The translations under genes and the position numbers were made by a program. Shown in pieces: positions 3,401 to 16,147 of a stretch of 17,848 bases of DNA (position 1 is the stretch's first letter; every line of letters starts with the position of its first letter). The DNA is from Deltaproteobacteria bacterium. Its GTDB lineage: Bacteria > Desulfobacterota > DSM-4660 > Desulfatiglandales > HGW-15. The stretch covers positions 660,448 to 678,295 of the forward strand of contig CP070840.1 in the NCBI GenBank assembly GCA_020342025.1, given 5' to 3'. A model generated the notes under the pieces. That model searched no databases. It was not told where the DNA came from and was given only the letters and a program-made list of their open reading frames with translations.

Positions 3401-3562
3401 GCTGGTATAATACAAGAATGAGTAGGTGTCATGAATTTACTTCGGTCAGATTTACCTCAAGAAATCAGTAGGACCTCTTCCTTCTGTTTTCTATTAAGCA
3501 TTAACAGGCCTCGGTGCAACTGACCGGGGACAATAATTTCTGCTTTAGAACATGTAGAATGA

Positions 3563-3805
3563 TCGTCCAAGACTTTTCGCTATAAGGCGGAGGCCTATTA
3601 TGGCAAAGCCATTGAAGTGGCTAAAGAGATCGGCGCCAAAGGAACTGAGGGGCAGGCCTATCTAGATTTGGGATTCCTGCACAAGGCAAAGAAGAGACCC
3701 TCTCAAGCAAGGGAATACCTCATAGAGGCTATTCAACTTTTCGAGCAGTGCGAGGCAAATGGATACTTGAAGCAAGCGAAGGATGCTCTGGAATCTTTAT
3801 ATTAG
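3563..3805 (+). pseudogene. Remnant: C-terminal TPR segment of a larger protein
   Basis: An open frame of 80 codons runs from just after a TGA at 3560 to TAG at 3803. It contains about two tetratricopeptide-type helical pairs: YYGKAIEVAKEIGAKGTEGQ, then YLDLGFLHKAKK and AREYLIEAIQLFEQ. This sequence style is typical of the C-terminal ends of large TPR proteins, including those attached to class III adenylate cyclase domains in delta-proteobacteria. There is no ATG or ribosome site in frame before the repeat homology begins; the only possible start is the internal GTG at 3617 without a Shine-Dalgarno. The rest of the gene is absent upstream, where the DUF362 gene runs the other way. I therefore call it a decayed fragment left by a rearrangement. 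Confidence 0.65.
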
Positions 3806-3913
3806 ATGCATGCTTCCTGCGCCTTAATTCCATATCTTCTGTATGCCTAAAATAACTCACCACTCAATGCTTTTGCTATATAGTCTTTACCCAAAGCGTA
3901 CTGGGAAATGACA

Positions 3914-4009
3914 GGGGGTGAGCCCTTGACTTTGGACAAAGGCTCCAAGTCACGGAGCCAGATCTTGTAAATATCAGGCCCAAAATGTCCAATGTCAAGG
4001 GCTGACCCC
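3914..4009. mobile_element. MITE/REPIN-like palindromic element, copy 2
   Basis: This is the second copy of the element at 2118-2212, in the same orientation. The arms at 3915-3938 and 3986-4009 are inverted repeats with two mismatches, and the right arm is identical to that of copy 1, including the following AATTG. The centre has an inner hairpin, GGCTCC (3941-3946) with GGAGCC (3954-3959). The rest of the 3806-4255 gap shows no gene. The two copies bracket the DUF362 gene and the TPR remnant. Confidence 0.75.
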
Positions 4010-4255
4010 AATTGGTTATTTACAGATTGTAAGAAATGCTGACATCAATATCCCCTGCTTTTCTTCGTATGTCCCGTCATAGATTAAACATCTCATTTAA
4101 AATCAGATACTTAGCCACGCAGAGGACCTTCCTTCACTTGGCACACCCTTTGCTCTAAACAATAGACCGAAGAGTACTGAATCGCCAAAGGGCTCTCCGC
4201 AATAGTAGATGGATCGCGACAGAAAAAAAGAATAGTACAAATAATGGAGAATAGC

Positions 4256-9470: not shown

Positions 9471-10052
9471 ATGGCCAGCAAAACCGATCACACAAACTCC
9501 AAGAAGCATGAACAGATCGTTGAGACCGCAGAAAGACTTTTTACCCGCCACGGCATAAAGCGGATCACCGTGGAGGAAATCTGTCAAAAGGCGGGTGTGA
9601 GCAAAATGACCTTTTACAAGTATTTTTCCAATAAGACAGACCTTGTAGAACATATCTTTAATAACTGGATAGAAGAGGGTTTTGAGAAACTGGATGAGAT
9701 CAATGCATTGACTATCCCTTTCCCGGAAAAGATAGAGATGATGTTTAAGTGGAGAACAGAGTTGGTCTCAAAGATGAGTACGGAATTCATTGAAGAGGTC
9801 CTTCCCATAGATCTTGAATACGGAAAGATCACGGAGCGTATTCTGAAGTTCATCGTAGATTCCCAAAAAAAAGGGGATATCCGGCCGGAAATCCGCCCAG
9901 AATTCATTGCAGCGGTCATTGATAAGATGCACGAACTGGCGCGCGATGAGAAATTAATGAGAATGTATCCCAGCTATATAGAGTTTAATCGTGAATTAAA
10001 GGATTTTTTTTGGTTCGGGCTTCTTCCTCGGCCTACGCATCCTAAGGAATAG
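9471..10052 (+). CDS. TetR-family transcriptional regulator
   Basis: This encodes a 193-residue protein. The N-terminal helix-turn-helix is a clear TetR type: ETAERLFTRHGIKRITVEEI, then CQKAGVSKMTFYKYFSNKTDLVEHIF (residues about 18-65). The C-terminal helical part is the variable ligand and dimerisation domain. GGGAG at 9461-9465 is 5 nt before ATG 9471. The gene lies 77 bp upstream of an RND membrane-fusion gene in the same direction, the usual arrangement of a local repressor of an efflux operon that responds to pump substrates. Half-sites upstream of it suggest autoregulation. Ligand is unknown. Confidence 0.9.
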   Translation: MASKTDHTNSKKHEQIVETAERLFTRHGIKRITVEEICQKAGVSKMTFYKYFSNKTDLVEHIFNNWIEEGFEKLDEINALTIPFPEKIEMMFKWRTELVSKMSTEFIEEVLPIDLEYGKITERILKFIVDSQKKGDIRPEIRPEFIAAVIDKMHELARDEKLMRMYPSYIEFNRELKDFFWFGLLPRPTHPKE

Positions 10053-10129
10053 CAGGAAGGAAGGCAGATTGAGTGGAGGGGAACCTGCATTTGGATAAAA
10101 GAAGGACACTATAAGGAAAGGTATTTTCT

Positions 10130-11425
10130 ATGGGTCACGATAGACGGTTATGGATTTCGGTAAGCCTTGTTATTTTAATCCTCATTTTGACTGGGGTGGG
10201 AATCTTTGTCCTGATGAAGACAGGCAAGGAGAGCACGGCCAAGATTCAGGAACCGCCGCGCCGGGTGGCCGTGGTGCTTCAAGAACTTGTGCCGCGGCCA
10301 TTCACCAAGACGGCGGAGGCGTACGCCACGGTATCGCCCCTCAAAAAAGGGACGGTGAGTGCCAGGATCGCTGGGCCGATAGACCAGATCTCGCCCATTG
10401 CTGAACCTGGAAGGTCTGTGTCCAAAGGGGAAGTGCTGGGTCGAATAGAGGAGAGGCGTTATGAGATAGCCCTGGAAAAAGCCGAGGCGTCCCTTAGTAA
10501 ATTCAAGGCGCTGCTGAAGATTGAACGCAGCGAAAATGAAAAGCGAGCGGCCCTTTTCAACATCGCCAAACAGAGGTTTGAACTTGCCAAGTCAGATTAT
10601 GGTCGCAAAAAGGTCTTGCACGAGGGGAAGCTTATTGCGAAACAGGAGCTTGAAATTGCTGAAAGCCAACTGGAGCTTCAACGATCAGAGTTGGAGAATG
10701 CGCGAAGTGAGCTCCAAAAACGAGAGTCCCGGATCCAGTCCGTTAAGGCCGACATTGCCTCTGCTGAAGCTGAAATCAAGAGGCTTAAGGAAGACTTATC
10801 AGACACCTTCATTCGCGCCCCTTTTGACGGCGTCATAGGCGAGCGCTACGTGGAAGTGGGTGATCAAGTCTCACCCAATCAGAAGCTTTTCACGGTCTTG
10901 GATGTCTCCACAGTAAAGGTCATCGCACGTATCCAGTCCCATGAGATTTCTCGCGTGAAGCAGGGAGTCGATGTCCAGATCACCACGAGGGCCTACCCCG
11001 AAATTGGATTCATGGGTCAAGTGGTTTATATCCACCCAGAGGCAGACCCCAAGAATCGGACCTTTTCTGTGGAAGTCCACGTCAAAAACAGAAAGGAGCC
11101 CATGCTTCTGCCTGGAATGTTCTCAAGAGTCCGGATTCCTCTTCAGAAATTCGATGAAGCCTTGATGGTACCCCGTGATGCACTCTTGGAAGACAATAAG
11201 GGTCCCTATCTATACGTGGCAGATGAGTCAAACCGTCAAGCACGAAGACGAGATGTGGTCGTTGGGGAACTTGGACCAGAGGAGGCCCTCATCATCTCAG
11301 GGGTCAACGCAGGCGAGTCCCTCATCATCAGGGGTCAAGAGCTTCTAAATGATGGAGCGTTTATCCATTGGGAGAAGCAGGGTCCCGATCCGTCTTCAGA
11401 TCGAATTCGGCAAGCCGATAAGTAG
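10130..11425 (+). CDS. RND efflux membrane-fusion (periplasmic adaptor) protein
   Basis: The protein is 431 residues and links the inner-membrane RND pump to an outer-membrane channel. It has an N-terminal membrane anchor (about residues 7-29) and no lipobox cysteine. A first half-lipoyl segment (GTVSARIAGPIDQISP) is followed by a long alpha-helical hairpin (about 105-225, with heptad-like AESQLELQRSELENARSEL). The second half-lipoyl segment is FIRAPFDGVIGERYVEVGDQV, and beta-barrel and membrane-proximal domains end near VNAGESLIIRGQELL. AAGGAAAGG at 10113-10121 is 8 nt before ATG 10130. It is followed after 20 bp by the RND pump gene, so the two are surely one operon. Confidence 0.93.
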   Translation: MGHDRRLWISVSLVILILILTGVGIFVLMKTGKESTAKIQEPPRRVAVVLQELVPRPFTKTAEAYATVSPLKKGTVSARIAGPIDQISPIAEPGRSVSKGEVLGRIEERRYEIALEKAEASLSKFKALLKIERSENEKRAALFNIAKQRFELAKSDYGRKKVLHEGKLIAKQELEIAESQLELQRSELENARSELQKRESRIQSVKADIASAEAEIKRLKEDLSDTFIRAPFDGVIGERYVEVGDQVSPNQKLFTVLDVSTVKVIARIQSHEISRVKQGVDVQITTRAYPEIGFMGQVVYIHPEADPKNRTFSVEVHVKNRKEPMLLPGMFSRVRIPLQKFDEALMVPRDALLEDNKGPYLYVADESNRQARRRDVVVGELGPEEALIISGVNAGESLIIRGQELLNDGAFIHWEKQGPDPSSDRIRQADK

Positions 11426-11445
11426 AAAGGACTCGTGGCAAGACA

Positions 11446-14400
11446 ATGGTCCGCTTTTTTGTCCGCAACTCTGTTTTCGTGAACCTCCTGATGATCGTCA
11501 TCTTGGTTGCAGGGGTTTTTGTCTACTTGACGATCAGTCGTGAGATCTTTCCCGAGTTCTCCCTAGATTCCATTTCCATTACCACTGCCTACCCAGCGGC
11601 ATCTCCTCAAGAGGTGGAAAAACTCATCACCATTAAGATCGAGGATGAAATTGCTGATATTGACGGTGTAGACAATATCTATTCTGAATCTCAGGAAGGC
11701 CTCTCCCTCATCACCGTGGAACTAAGGAGCGGTGCCGATTTAGATCGCGCGCTCAATGATATTTCCTCGGCTATAGAAAGAACGGAAGACCTCCCTGAAG
11801 ATGCCGAGGATTCCGTGGTGGCGGAAGTCAAGAACGCATTCCCGGTGATCACGGTCTCTCTGTATGGTGCTCTTCCCGAACTGAGCATGAAGGATCTGGC
11901 TGAGGAGGTTCGAGACGAATTACGCAGCATTCCTGGGGTGGCCACCGTTTACATCTCTGGGGCCAGAGACCGGGAGGTCTGGGTGGAGGTGGACCCCAGA
12001 CGCTTGGAGCAATACCAACTCAGTCTTGGGGACATCCAGGGGGCCCTGGAGGCGAGGAATCTCAATCTTCCGGCGGGAACCATAAAGTCCGATCAGGGGG
12101 AATTCCTCGTGCGTACAGTGGGAGAGATTCTAGAGGCCCGCCAACTTGAGGATGTCATTGTCCGTTCTGATCCTGACGGAAACCTGTTAACCCTTTCTCA
12201 GGTGGCACGGATTCGGGATGTGTTTGAGGAACCTGTGACCTTTGGTCGTTTTAACGGCCAGCCAGCCATGAATCTTGCCATAAGCAAGGAGAAAAAGGGC
12301 GATGCCATTGCCATATCTCAAGCGGTGAGAAAACTGGTTGAAGAATATGAGAAGAGGCTTCCACCCGGGGTGCACCTGGATGTGTTCAACGATTTTTCCG
12401 TCTATATTACGAACCGGCTAAATACGCTCATAAGAAACGGGGTTGCGGGATTCGCCCTGGTGCTCATCATTCTGGGGGTCTTCTTCAACGTTCGCCTCTC
12501 TGCAATGACAGCTCTGGGCATTCCGGTTTCTTTCTCAGGAGCTCTGATTCTCATGCAGGCCTTTGACATCTCACTCAACATGATGTCCATGTTCAGTCTT
12601 ATTCTTGTGCTTGGGATCATTGTGGATGATGCCATCGTGGTCTCAGAAAACACCTACCGATACATGGAGTCAGGCCTTTCCCCAGAAGAAGCGGCAGTAA
12701 AGGGCACAAATCAGGTGATGGCTCCCGTGGTGGCCACCATCCTCACCACCATCGCCGCCTTCCTTCCCATGCTGCTCATTGGTGGAACCATGGGAAAATT
12801 CCTTTCTGTACTCCCGAAGGTGGTGACATTTGCCCTCTTGGCGTCCCTCGTGGAAGCCCTAGTTATCTTGCCTTCCCATCTGGCAGATTGGTCCCCGAGG
12901 CGTGTTCGGGATCTGTCCACGCACCGCTCAGAAGTATGGTTAAACAGGATCAGGAAGGTTTACACTCGATTCCTTCGGCTTTGTCTGAAATGGAAATATG
13001 TGAGCCTTGTGGCAAGCTTTGGGATCACGGCCTTGATTATTACTTTTGCGGCCACGAGGATCCCGTTTGTCTTGTTTCACGAATTCGAGTCCACACAGTT
13101 CTTTATCAACGTGGAGACACCGGTTACGTCTAAACTGGAGGACACCCGAGATGTGGTCGCGCGCATAGAGAAGCTGATCATTGAGAATCTGCCTCCGAGC
13201 GAACTTGAATCCCTGGCTACCAATGTGGGGCTTATCTTTCTGGATGTGAATCGTATTGTCCGGGGTTCCAATGGTGGTCAGATTATTGTGGAACTGACAG
13301 AGGCCCACAAACGCAAGCGCTCGAGCAACGAAATCATAAAGGCACTGCGCAAGTTGACCGAGCGGGTACCCGGGGCCACCAAGATCCAGTATCTCACGCC
13401 ACAGGCAGGCCCTGGAGGCCCTGCCATTGAAATCCGGATCGTGGGCGATAACCTTGAGGTCCTTCAACAGATAGCGGAGGAAATTAAGGACTACCTATCC
13501 ACCATACCCGGGGCGAAAGACATAAGGGACGATTTCCTGCCTGGGAAAAGGGAGCTTCTGATTGTGACTCGACCCGAGGCCAAGAGCCTGGGGCTGGACG
13601 TGAGATCCGTTGCCATGCAGGTGAAAAATAGCTTTTATGGCGCAGAGTCTTCCAAGATCCTTCGTTCTGACGAGGATATCCCCATCATGGTGAAGTACCC
13701 TGAAGACTACCGGGTTCGCCCATCGAGTGTGGAGGATCTTGTTTTGACAACGCCCACTGGGGAGAAGGTCTACTTCAAGGAAGTGGCGGAGGTCCGGGAG
13801 GGGAAAGGATATACCAAGATTGTGCGATCAGACGAGAAGCGCACCATTACGGTCCTGGGAGACGTGGATGAAAAAGAGGGCAATACCCTCGAGATTACCA
13901 GTCAGGTCCAAAGGCACTTCCAGGATCTGAGTCGTCGTTACCCAGGTTACAAATTGGAATTCAAAGGGAAGAGGCAGGAGATTGAGCAGTCTCTCATGGA
14001 TCTTCTGAGAAGTTTCGGCGTGGCCGTCCTCCTCATCTATTTGATCTTGGGGGCCTTGTTCAAGTCCTATATTCAGCCCCTGGTGGTCATGTTGGCCATT
14101 CCCTTTGCGGCCAACGGGGTCGTCTTGGGCCATGCCGTCATGGGAATAAACCTGGGGTTTCTTTCCTTGATGGGAATGGTCGCATTGGGAGGGGTGGTGG
14201 TCAATGATTCCCTCATATTGGTGGATTTTATCAATCAGAGAAGAAAGGCGGGGGAGCCCCTCATCGAGTCTATCGTACATGCCGGGCAAATTCGTCTTCG
14301 ACCGATCCTCATCACCACAATCACCACAGTGGTGGCCTTGGTCCCGTTGGGATTCTTCGCCTCAGGTCAGGCCAAGTTTCTCGCTCCCATGGCCATCTCA

Positions 14401-14556
14401 CTCATTTTTGGGCTCGCAGTCGCTACACTCCTTACCCTGGTTATAGTCCCCTGCTCTTATGCCATTGTTGACGGGTGGCGAGGGACCCTGCGTCAGTTGT
14501 TGGGTCTGCGTAGAGATCATCTGCGGCAGGAAGAAGTCAAAGATCCTGTCTCATAA
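11446..14556 (+). CDS. RND efflux pump, inner-membrane transporter (HAE1-like)
   Basis: This encodes a proton-driven exporter of 1036 residues, the usual length for RND pumps, forming a trimer in the inner membrane. Transmembrane helix 1 is at about residues 9-29, the first periplasmic porter region follows, helices 2-6 lie near 330-490, the second porter region lies near 560-850, and the last helices are at about 860-1010. The proton-relay aspartates of helix 4 are present as Asp394-Asp395 in GIIVDDAIVVSENTYRYME. In helix 10 the relay lysine of AcrB (Lys940) is Val919, in GGVVVNDSLILVDF, followed by Asn920-Asp921. The only nearby purine-rich ribosome site (AAAGG, 11426-11430) is a rather long 15 nt from ATG 11446, so translational coupling with the upstream gene is likely. 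Substrates are unknown; an outer-membrane factor is not encoded here. Confidence 0.95.
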   Translation: MVRFFVRNSVFVNLLMIVILVAGVFVYLTISREIFPEFSLDSISITTAYPAASPQEVEKLITIKIEDEIADIDGVDNIYSESQEGLSLITVELRSGADLDRALNDISSAIERTEDLPEDAEDSVVAEVKNAFPVITVSLYGALPELSMKDLAEEVRDELRSIPGVATVYISGARDREVWVEVDPRRLEQYQLSLGDIQGALEARNLNLPAGTIKSDQGEFLVRTVGEILEARQLEDVIVRSDPDGNLLTLSQVARIRDVFEEPVTFGRFNGQPAMNLAISKEKKGDAIAISQAVRKLVEEYEKRLPPGVHLDVFNDFSVYITNRLNTLIRNGVAGFALVLIILGVFFNVRLSAMTALGIPVSFSGALILMQAFDISLNMMSMFSLILVLGIIVDDAIVVSENTYRYMESGLSPEEAAVKGTNQVMAPVVATILTTIAAFLPMLLIGGTMGKFLSVLPKVVTFALLASLVEALVILPSHLADWSPRRVRDLSTHRSEVWLNRIRKVYTRFLRLCLKWKYVSLVASFGITALIITFAATRIPFVLFHEFESTQFFINVETPVTSKLEDTRDVVARIEKLIIENLPPSELESLATNVGLIFLDVNRIVRGSNGGQIIVELTEAHKRKRSSNEIIKALRKLTERVPGATKIQYLTPQAGPGGPAIEIRIVGDNLEVLQQIAEEIKDYLSTIPGAKDIRDDFLPGKRELLIVTRPEAKSLGLDVRSVAMQVKNSFYGAESSKILRSDEDIPIMVKYPEDYRVRPSSVEDLVLTTPTGEKVYFKEVAEVREGKGYTKIVRSDEKRTITVLGDVDEKEGNTLEITSQVQRHFQDLSRRYPGYKLEFKGKRQEIEQSLMDLLRSFGVAVLLIYLILGALFKSYIQPLVVMLAIPFAANGVVLGHAVMGINLGFLSLMGMVALGGVVVNDSLILVDFINQRRKAGEPLIESIVHAGQIRLRPILITTITTVVALVPLGFFASGQAKFLAPMAISLIFGLAVATLLTLVIVPCSYAIVDGWRGTLRQLLGLRRDHLRQEEVKDPVS

Positions 14557-14683: not shown

Positions 14684-16024
14684 CTACATAACTTTAAGCA
14701 ATTGGTTTGCGGCGGTGAGCAGGGGATCCCAAGTGGGGCCGAACGGTGGCGCATAGGCCAGATCGGACTGACTGAATTCTTCAACAGTAAACTTGGCGTG
14801 CAAGGCAATGGCCGCTGCATTGACCCGATGGGCAGCCCCATCTCTTCCAACCAACTGAGCGCCTAAAAGACGTCTGGATTTCCTGTCCGCCACCATCTGC
14901 ACGCCAATCTTGGATGCCCCGGGGTGACGGTGGGCTCGGGTGGAGCTCTGGATCATCATCTCCACCGGCTCAAATCCGAATTCCTCAGCCTCAACCATGC
15001 TCAGTCCGGTGCGGGCCACCTCAAGTCCAAGAACCTTGAAGGCGGCTGTTCCAGCAACCCCTGGCAGCTCTGCGTTTCTGCCCGTCACATTATCAGCGAC
15101 CGCCCAACCGGCCCTGTTGGCCCTTAAAGCAAGGGGGATCCATGTCCTTTGGTCCGTGACCACATGAAAGGCGTCTGCACAGTCCCCAGCTGCATAGATA
15201 TGCGGGTCGGAGGTGAGAAGCCCCTTGTCCACAGCAATGGCGTTTTCCGGCCCAAGTTCCAAGCCTGCCTTTTCTGCCAGTTGGCTGTTGGGAGTGATTC
15301 CAATGGCCACTAATACCATCTGGCCCTCCAGCGTCAGGTCCGAGCAGACAACCTGAAGTATTCCATCCTTTTTCTCGATCCTTTTAACATCGTGACCCAG
15401 GTGCATGTTAATGCCGTTGGACTCAATCTCCTCCTTGACCATGTCAGCCAATTTTTCATGTATCCAGGGCAGAAAGACGGGCCGGGATTTCACCATATCC
15501 ACCCCCATACCCCTCTCATGGAGGGCCTCGCACATCTCCAGAGCAATATACCCCATGCCAATGATGATGGCCTTTTTCACATTTTGATCATGAATAAACT
15601 GCTTTATTCTTCTGCCATCTTTCAGGGTTTTCAGGACCATGACGCCAGGAAGGTCAAAACCTGGCAAGTCCGGAATGACGGGGGAGGCACCGGTTGCTAT
15701 TAAGAGCTTTTCATAGGGTAATTGGAAATCCTCGCCCTTTAGCGTCTTTCCCTTGACAATTTTAGTGGAAGGGTCAATAAGCTCCACCCGATGCTCGGTT
15801 CTCAGGTCTATGCCCTGTTCTTCCCTGAAAACGTGCGCCTGTCTTACTACAAGATCATCTATGTCCCGACCGGGATCAGCAATGTTATAGGGAATCCCTC
15901 AGGCACTGTAAGAGACGTCTCTCGTTTGTTCTAAAACGCTTACCTCCATATCAGGTTGTTTCCTCTTTGCCCGGCTGGCCGCGCTCATACCCGCCGCATC
16001 CCCGCCTATAACCACAAACTTCAT
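14684..16024 (-). CDS. Predicted selenoprotein: CoA-disulfide-reductase/NADH-oxidase-like FAD enzyme with Sec42
   Basis: Read on the minus strand from ATG 16024 to the TAA/TGA-type end at 14684, this is one frame of 446 residues plus stop, interrupted only by TGA at codon 42 (15899-15901). AAGGAGG (16030-16036) lies 5 nt before the ATG. Domains: FAD-binding VVIGGDAAGMSAASRAKR (4-21); the redox motif VSYSA-U-GIPYNIAD, where the family has Cys; ATGA (110-113); NAD(P)-binding GMGYIALE (156-163); FAD-binding AAGDCAD (278-284); and a C-terminal dimerisation domain ending with DLAYAPPFGPTWDP (421-434). Family members reduce CoA disulfide, other disulfides, persulfides or oxygen with NAD(P)H through the single active-site Cys (Cys43 in S. 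aureus CoA-disulfide reductase). A hairpin with a GGUC loop follows the UGA. I infer that UGA is decoded as selenocysteine. A simple caller would start at GTG 15787, losing the FAD motif. There is no rhodanese domain. Confidence 0.85.
15857..15883 (-). promoter_or_regulatory. SECIS-like hairpin downstream of the in-frame UGA
   Basis: Numbering the U of UGA as 1, RNA bases 27-38 fold as UCCC-GGUC-GGGA, with the apical loop GGUC at 31-34 (genomic 15871-15868). The loop begins 27 nt after the UGA, within the range accepted for bacterial SECIS elements. The stem extends below a bulged A26 with G25-C39 and U24-A40, then after two mismatches with three more pairs (19-21 with 43-45). E. coli fdhF also has a GGUC loop and a bulge lower in the stem. 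The fold was made by eye. Confidence 0.6.
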
Positions 16025-16147
16025 CTTTTCCTCCTTCACCACGTATTAAGTTAGACCACGAATATCCGTTGCCCGGTTTCACGGGGCGCTCAAGCTATCT
16101 TCCATTAGATGATCAAAGAAATCCAGTCTAATTAAATACCCTGTGGC

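Follow-up and report, generated by a model that had tools for sequence, protein, structure and literature searches.

Sequence comparisons indicate that a gene in the DNA analysed here almost certainly encodes a selenoprotein, in which selenocysteine (Sec) would occupy the place of the redox-active cysteine of flavoproteins resembling CoA-disulfide reductases. The window, that is, the whole stretch of DNA that was analysed, comprises 17,848 nucleotides from a Deltaproteobacteria bacterium. We consider the explanation as a whole, Sec insertion combined with CoA-linked or polysulfide chemistry whose substrates are drawn in outline only, to be very likely. The original prediction had given the plus-strand positions of the gene correctly but had left out the strand, and the gene lies on the minus strand. 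The features are as follows:

14684..16024, minus strand: coding sequence of 446 residues for a CoA-disulfide-reductase-like protein dependent on FAD and NAD(P)H, with predicted Sec42 (open reading frame, families, alignments, predicted fold).
15899..15901, minus strand: TGA codon 42, predicted to be read as Sec, at the site of the redox Cys (sequence, alignments, homologous genes).
16030..16035, minus strand: ribosome binding site AGGAGG, 5 nt 5' of the ATG (sequence).
15864..15875, minus strand: SECIS-like apical hairpin UCCC-GGUC-GGGA, with the loop GGUC at 15871-15868, 27 nt past the TGA (fold prediction, gene comparison, published limits).
15856..15884, minus strand: possible longer stem around the GGUC hairpin, from a predicted minimum-energy fold (52 nt, -13.1 kcal/mol).
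15848..15889, minus strand: codons 46-59, the 14-codon stretch of top synonymous-codon conservation among six GGUC genes (codon comparison).

The frame runs from an ATG to a TAG between 16024 and 14684, and its sole inner stop is the TGA within SYSA-U-GIPYN, so that the single interruption at codon 42 had been described correctly. The plus-strand frame of 14684-16024 was ruled out as coding because of its many stops. The strong ribosome site that had been claimed was located as the AGGAGG listed above, and the claim that the frame stays intact past the TGA through the NAD, FAD, and dimerisation parts agrees with the Pfam families Pyr_redox_2 (residues 2-303) and Pyr_redox_dim (residues 328-429), which together cover the frame. 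In alignments to three solved relatives (6ruz, 4fx9, and 3kd9), the TGA codon coincides with their conserved Cys, confirming its assignment to the redox position. We saw no other inactivating change in the gene.

Comparison of codon 42 in 155 distinct homologous genes, the window gene included, revealed TGC in 86, TGT in 34, and TGA in 35, and neither TAA nor TAG in any. Across the aligned stretch, every TGA gene carried a single stop, located at the homologous codon, and the Cys genes carried none. A bacterial selenoprotein is expected to show its TGA aligned with a conserved Cys in at least two sequences; here, 35 TGA genes align with 120 Cys genes, which also answers the earlier call to look for Cys or Sec at residue 42 of homologues. 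Given that 35 of the 155 genes have TGA at this place, the codon is not a stray nonsense mutation, and the original judgment that a random one is improbable is upheld by the 34 genes other than that of the window with TGA at exactly the same codon. Together with the 13 other open reading frames of the window (4512 codons as delimited here), which contain no inner stop, this recurrence puts the TGA beyond chance.

Genes with more than 50% identity to the window protein were termed close (114 genes; 15 TGA and 99 Cys), and the remaining 41 (20 TGA and 21 Cys) formed a distant set that was hand-picked, half of it for having TGA, so that the TGA and Cys counts are not frequencies. Among 80 loci fetched from genome contigs with the window protein, codon 42 was readable in 78, as TGC in 52, TGT in 18, and TGA in eight. 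A less biased view came from the order to which the nearest TGA genome belongs: 85 of its genomes were searched, 47 gave a match at E <= 1e-100, and eight of these 47 had one inner stop, always TGA. A sample of the phylum yielded matches at E <= 1e-70 in 242 of 395 genomes; among the matches listed, at least four close and at least 49 distant ones had one inner TGA and none had TAA or TAG, and 20 of these at least 49 distant matches were fetched as the distant TGA genes. The best 120 database proteins included 15 with 80-99% identity to the window protein, all of them short (365-403 residues) and starting after codon 42, six at residue 44, while the other 105 were at most 77% identical and 446 residues or longer. 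The 15 closest database relatives among these 120 are thus recorded without their FAD-binding N-terminus, an annotation fault most simply explained by gene callers stopping at the Sec codon, and we infer from the protein starts that their genes carry TGA at codon 42.

The sequence downstream of the TGA contains a candidate SECIS element. According to a published model of bacterial SECIS elements (PMC13188914), the loop has 3-9 nt with a G in its first two places, the stem 4-16 bp, the spacing is 16-37 nt, and the MFE is <= -7.5. The window hairpin falls within these limits, with its GGUC loop, a stem of 4 bp (the minimum), a spacing of 27 nt, and an MFE of -13.1 kcal/mol for the 52-nt fold. 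This fold after the TGA was not more stable than its shuffled versions (z -0.41; 62 of 200 shuffles as stable), and an Rfam search of the window with E up to 10 returned six matches, all far under their gathering scores. The comparative evidence for a SECIS element is stronger than the fold energy of the window's own sequence. The core CCCGGTCGGG was present in six of the 15 close TGA genes (the window gene, L001, L048, L093, L101, and L108) and in none of the 99 close Cys genes, including two that encode the same residues, ADPGRD. Among the six GGUC genes, same-codon use at codons 46-59 was 0.747, the highest of 433 14-codon segments (gene-wide, 0.431). At codons 43-56, the same codon was used in 121 of 176 comparisons within the GGUC group versus 973 of 2551 among Cys relatives, the latter comprising 25 relatives compared pairwise at 60-82% identity. 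Hairpins allowed by the model at -3 kcal/mol or better were found in 13/15 TGA versus 23/99 Cys genes of the close set and in 20/20 versus 4/21 of the distant set. The hairpins of TGA genes were more stable than those of Cys genes in rank tests not corrected for relatedness (p 2e-5, close; p 2.5e-7, distant). Of the close TGA genes, L077, which comes from Desulfatitalea alkaliphila, had no hairpin under a contiguous-stem rule, and L062 had only an unstable one.

A close TGA gene was found in 14 genomes, each of which had at least two of selA, selB, and tRNA-Sec. The selA gene was over the cut-off in 13 of them (in the remaining one, G004, it is a fragment), selB in 13, and tRNA-Sec, at 59.8-75.2 bits, in 12 (missing in G005 and G007). 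Only tRNA-Sec matches well above the gathering score of 47 were counted, because weaker matches slightly above 47 occur as well and five of the 14 genomes of the control set exceed it. The nearest TGA genome, G002, whose protein is 75% identical to the window protein, had selA at 611 bits and tRNA-Sec at 73 bits and was the one without selB over the cut-off. Twelve genomes with the Cys form were equally equipped (selB over the cut-off in 11/12, tRNA-Sec in 11/12), indicating that the machinery is permissive and no specific mark of the TGA form, and that the lineage is Sec-competent in general. The host, a member of Desulfobacterota (Thermodesulfobacteriota), is probably anaerobic, judging by the names of its nearest relatives alone. 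The central proposal of the original prediction, that Sec replaces the redox Cys, is supported by the pattern of TGA and Cys at codon 42, the SECIS-type hairpin and the synonymous-codon conservation around it, and the Sec machinery of relatives.

A pseudogene, a sequencing error in which TGC or TGT was miscalled, or a genuine N-terminal truncation with a downstream start could account for a frame broken by one stop alone and for close relatives recorded as short proteins in 15 of the best 120 database entries, and yet any of these is very improbable. The same stop recurs in the other TGA genes, never as TAA or TAG and with no second stop in the aligned stretches, the sequence 5' of it is under purifying conservation (the FAD motif IGGDAAGM is kept in 13 of the 15 close TGA rows), and synonymous-codon conservation peaks 3' of it; a product starting past codon 42 would be without the FAD-binding N-terminus. 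The recurrent TGA and the synonymous conservation led us to reject a pseudogene. A changed genetic code with TGA as an ordinary sense codon, under which the frame would also be open on read-through, is more improbable still. It was rejected on the ends of open reading frames and on TGG use: none of the 13 other open reading frames has an inner TGA and four of them terminate in one, Trp is encoded by TGG (61 codons in the 14 open reading frames of the window), and relatives use only Cys codons at the place of the TGA. A third alternative accepts Sec insertion, concerns function, and would make the selenoprotein similar to NADH peroxidases or oxidases, with H2O2 or O2 oxidising the selenol to a selenenic acid, and with a role in oxidant defence over CoA-linked sulfur chemistry. 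Structural matches indicate that NADH oxidases and peroxidases have the fold of the window protein in common. We regard this alternative as unlikely, although it deserves more weight than the other two, since CoA-disulfide and persulfide reductases rank first among both the sequence families and the structural matches, the model for H2O-forming NADH oxidase scored 262.8 bits versus 399 bits for the best family, and the YAPPF motif of CoA-type relatives is retained.

That best family is TIGR03385, the top NCBIfam match across nearly the full length of the window protein, at 399 bits with a cut-off of 578.8; NF007123 reached 392.9 bits with a cut-off of 458. Since the cut-offs are not reached, we classify the window protein as one that works like a CoA-disulfide reductase and not as a proven one. 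The CoA-disulfide reductase cut-offs are likewise missed by the proteins of L142, L146, L048, and L002, of which three are further Sec forms and one is a Cys form, and by the protein of L154, for which TIGR03385 is the best family at 436.9 bits. The Sec form of this family is recognised by a UGxP motif within TIGR03385, and the window protein reads UGIP. According to the alignment and the structure model, one redox residue, the predicted Sec in place of Cys, lies next to FAD; the model, built with Cys for Sec, has the same fold as the single-cysteine enzymes, and the FAD and YAPPF motifs are retained. S. aureus CoA-disulfide reductase has two active-site tyrosines, Y361 and Y419, which may correspond to the YAPPF tyrosine and to the place where 6ruz and 4fx9 read HYYPG and the window protein HRHPG. 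That place reads AHAHPG in 65 of 96 Cys rows of close relatives. No rhodanese match was present among the six Pfam families of the window protein, which ends at residue 446. Function similar to that of a CoA-disulfide or persulfide reductase is probable from these analyses, and the choice of substrate is uncertain given HRHPG for HYYPG, the cut-offs, and the fold held in common with NADH oxidases and peroxidases.

Enzymes of the single-cysteine class use FAD and bound CoA for the NAD(P)H-dependent reduction of di-, per-, and polysulfides (PMC6026696), and their catalytic Cys, Cys 42 in A. fulgidus Npsr, is located on the flavin's si face (PMC7969121). In the mechanism that we propose, SelB and tRNA-Sec would decode the UGA of codon 42 as Sec, aided by the GGUC hairpin downstream, which would place Sec42 next to FAD at the redox Cys position of single-cysteine pyridine nucleotide-disulfide oxidoreductases. 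By analogy, NAD(P)H would reduce FAD, which would in turn reduce the selenenylsulfide that links CoA to Sec42; the released pair of selenolate and CoA could then reduce CoA-disulfide, CoA-persulfide, or polysulfide.

The distribution of Sec was examined in a tree of 121 rows (the 35 TGA genes, 49 of the 99 close Cys genes, the 21 distant Cys genes, and, from the database, two Cys proteins plus 14 of the 15 short ones). In it, the window gene, the TGA gene L048, and the 14 short proteins formed a clade with an SH-aLRT of 100 and no Cys row. By a quick method, at least 11 changes between TGA and Cys rows were required in this tree, of which starred branches force six (TGA group) and four (Cys group). 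A tree of the 83 close rows required seven changes, with only one forced by starred branches. AU tests did not reject a single Sec clade, whether it comprised every close Sec row plus the short proteins (p 0.505) or the GGUC group plus the short proteins (p 0.605). Several origins of Sec inside the close subfamily are unsupported, as starred branches force one change and the AU test keeps a single clade. Residue 44 (codon 44, 15893-15895), two past the redox residue, was Met in all 99 close Cys genes, and Ile in nine and Leu in one of the 15 close Sec genes; on well-supported branches, its linkage to Sec was not significant (four independent pairs, median p 1).

Two genomes, G044 (L109 and L158) and G070 (L110 and L157), each hold a window-type Cys copy and a distant Geobacter-type TGA copy, indicating that the two subfamilies coexist as paralogs. 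It is quite possible, and we propose it tentatively, that the CoA-disulfide-reductase family gained Sec on at least two separate occasions, in paralogous subfamilies, one of the Geobacter type and one of the window type with its Desulfobacterota relatives (about 41% identical), and that a GGUC SECIS loop and a shift at residue 44 accompanied the exchange in the latter, yielding a selenol-based CoA-persulfide or polysulfide reductase.

A distant TGA clade comprised L145, L146, L150, L151, L152, L155, L156, L159, L160, and L161, along with one Cys row, L179. This Cys (TGT) gene is nested beside the TGA gene L161 with a support of 100, and is a candidate for Sec-to-Cys reversion. The ten TGA genes have their Sec codon at about residue 41, followed in each case, at a distance of 18 nt from the TGA, by a strong hairpin whose loop is GGN. 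The residue following their Sec is not Gly (UETP, USEP, ULMP, UPTP, UDLP, and UPMP), which places the clade outside the UGxP motif listed for the family.

Gene neighbourhoods were hardly informative. The flanks of the homologous genes differed greatly in length; L048 and L010 have a mutY relative close by, and L004, L010, L073, and L112 a relative of 3-hydroxyacyl-CoA dehydrogenase. In the window itself, a TetR-type regulator (Pfam) is followed by a putative membrane-fusion protein and a 1036-residue RND transporter, both identified by eye (9471-14556), an ordinary efflux arrangement that adjoins the Sec gene on the opposite strand. A lone TPR-like fragment of 62 codons (3617-3805; Pfam TPR below the cut-off) lies in a region with few other ORFs that spans about 800 bases (3416-4243) and is perhaps a gene remnant.

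The many natural pairs of Sec and Cys forms of one enzyme in related bacteria provide material for studying the benefit of selenium to a single-cysteine, CoA-assisted flavoenzyme. The original prediction had asked whether Sec members of this family were already described, and they are recorded as 'NADH oxidase' or 'FAD-dependent oxidoreductase (CoA-disulfide reductase)'. Records of Sec in the CoA-disulfide-reductase family go back to 2006: a selenoprotein list for Geobacter metallireducens contains one 'NADH oxidase' sequence (PMC1794560), one Sec sequence of the family was reported from GOS data (PMC2398784), and WP_011365774.1, which we infer to be the G. metallireducens protein, is listed as a selenoprotein under 'FAD-dependent oxidoreductase (CoA-disulfide reductase, NADH oxidase)' (PMC9312934). 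The same selenoprotein family has also been given with the motif UGxP, TIGR03385, and the grade 'Predicted with high confidence' (PMC13188914). The window gene is a well-supported new branch of this record, and what is new, as far as sequences tell, is a distinct Sec subfamily. We found no report of its Sec form in the part of the literature covered, and an earlier description is possible.

Among known systems, the NF049943 FAD oxidoreductase is likewise a predicted Sec protein in Desulfobacterota, but it has an HxxU motif, belongs to another family, and was absent from the best 25 of the 52 family matches of the window protein. The Pyrococcus horikoshii CoA disulfide / persulfide-polysulfide reductase (4fx9 and 3kd9) is 36% identical to the window protein and differs from it in having Cys for Sec and HYYPG for HRHPG. 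Npsr of A. fulgidus (6pfz, with active-site Cys 42) and S. loihica (3ntd) shares the FAD/NADH core, whereas it has Cys instead of Sec and a C-terminal rhodanese domain of its own (about 100 residues; PMC7969121). The known Sec family (WP_011365774.1; PMC9312934, PMC13188914, PMC1794560) resembles the window protein in its predicted Sec, its UGxP motif, and TIGR03385. However, its Geobacter sp. AOG1 Sec member, represented by the distant TGA gene L154 (100% identical over 80% to protein P0245 of this strain), shares 41% identity with the window protein and belongs to another subfamily of the tree.
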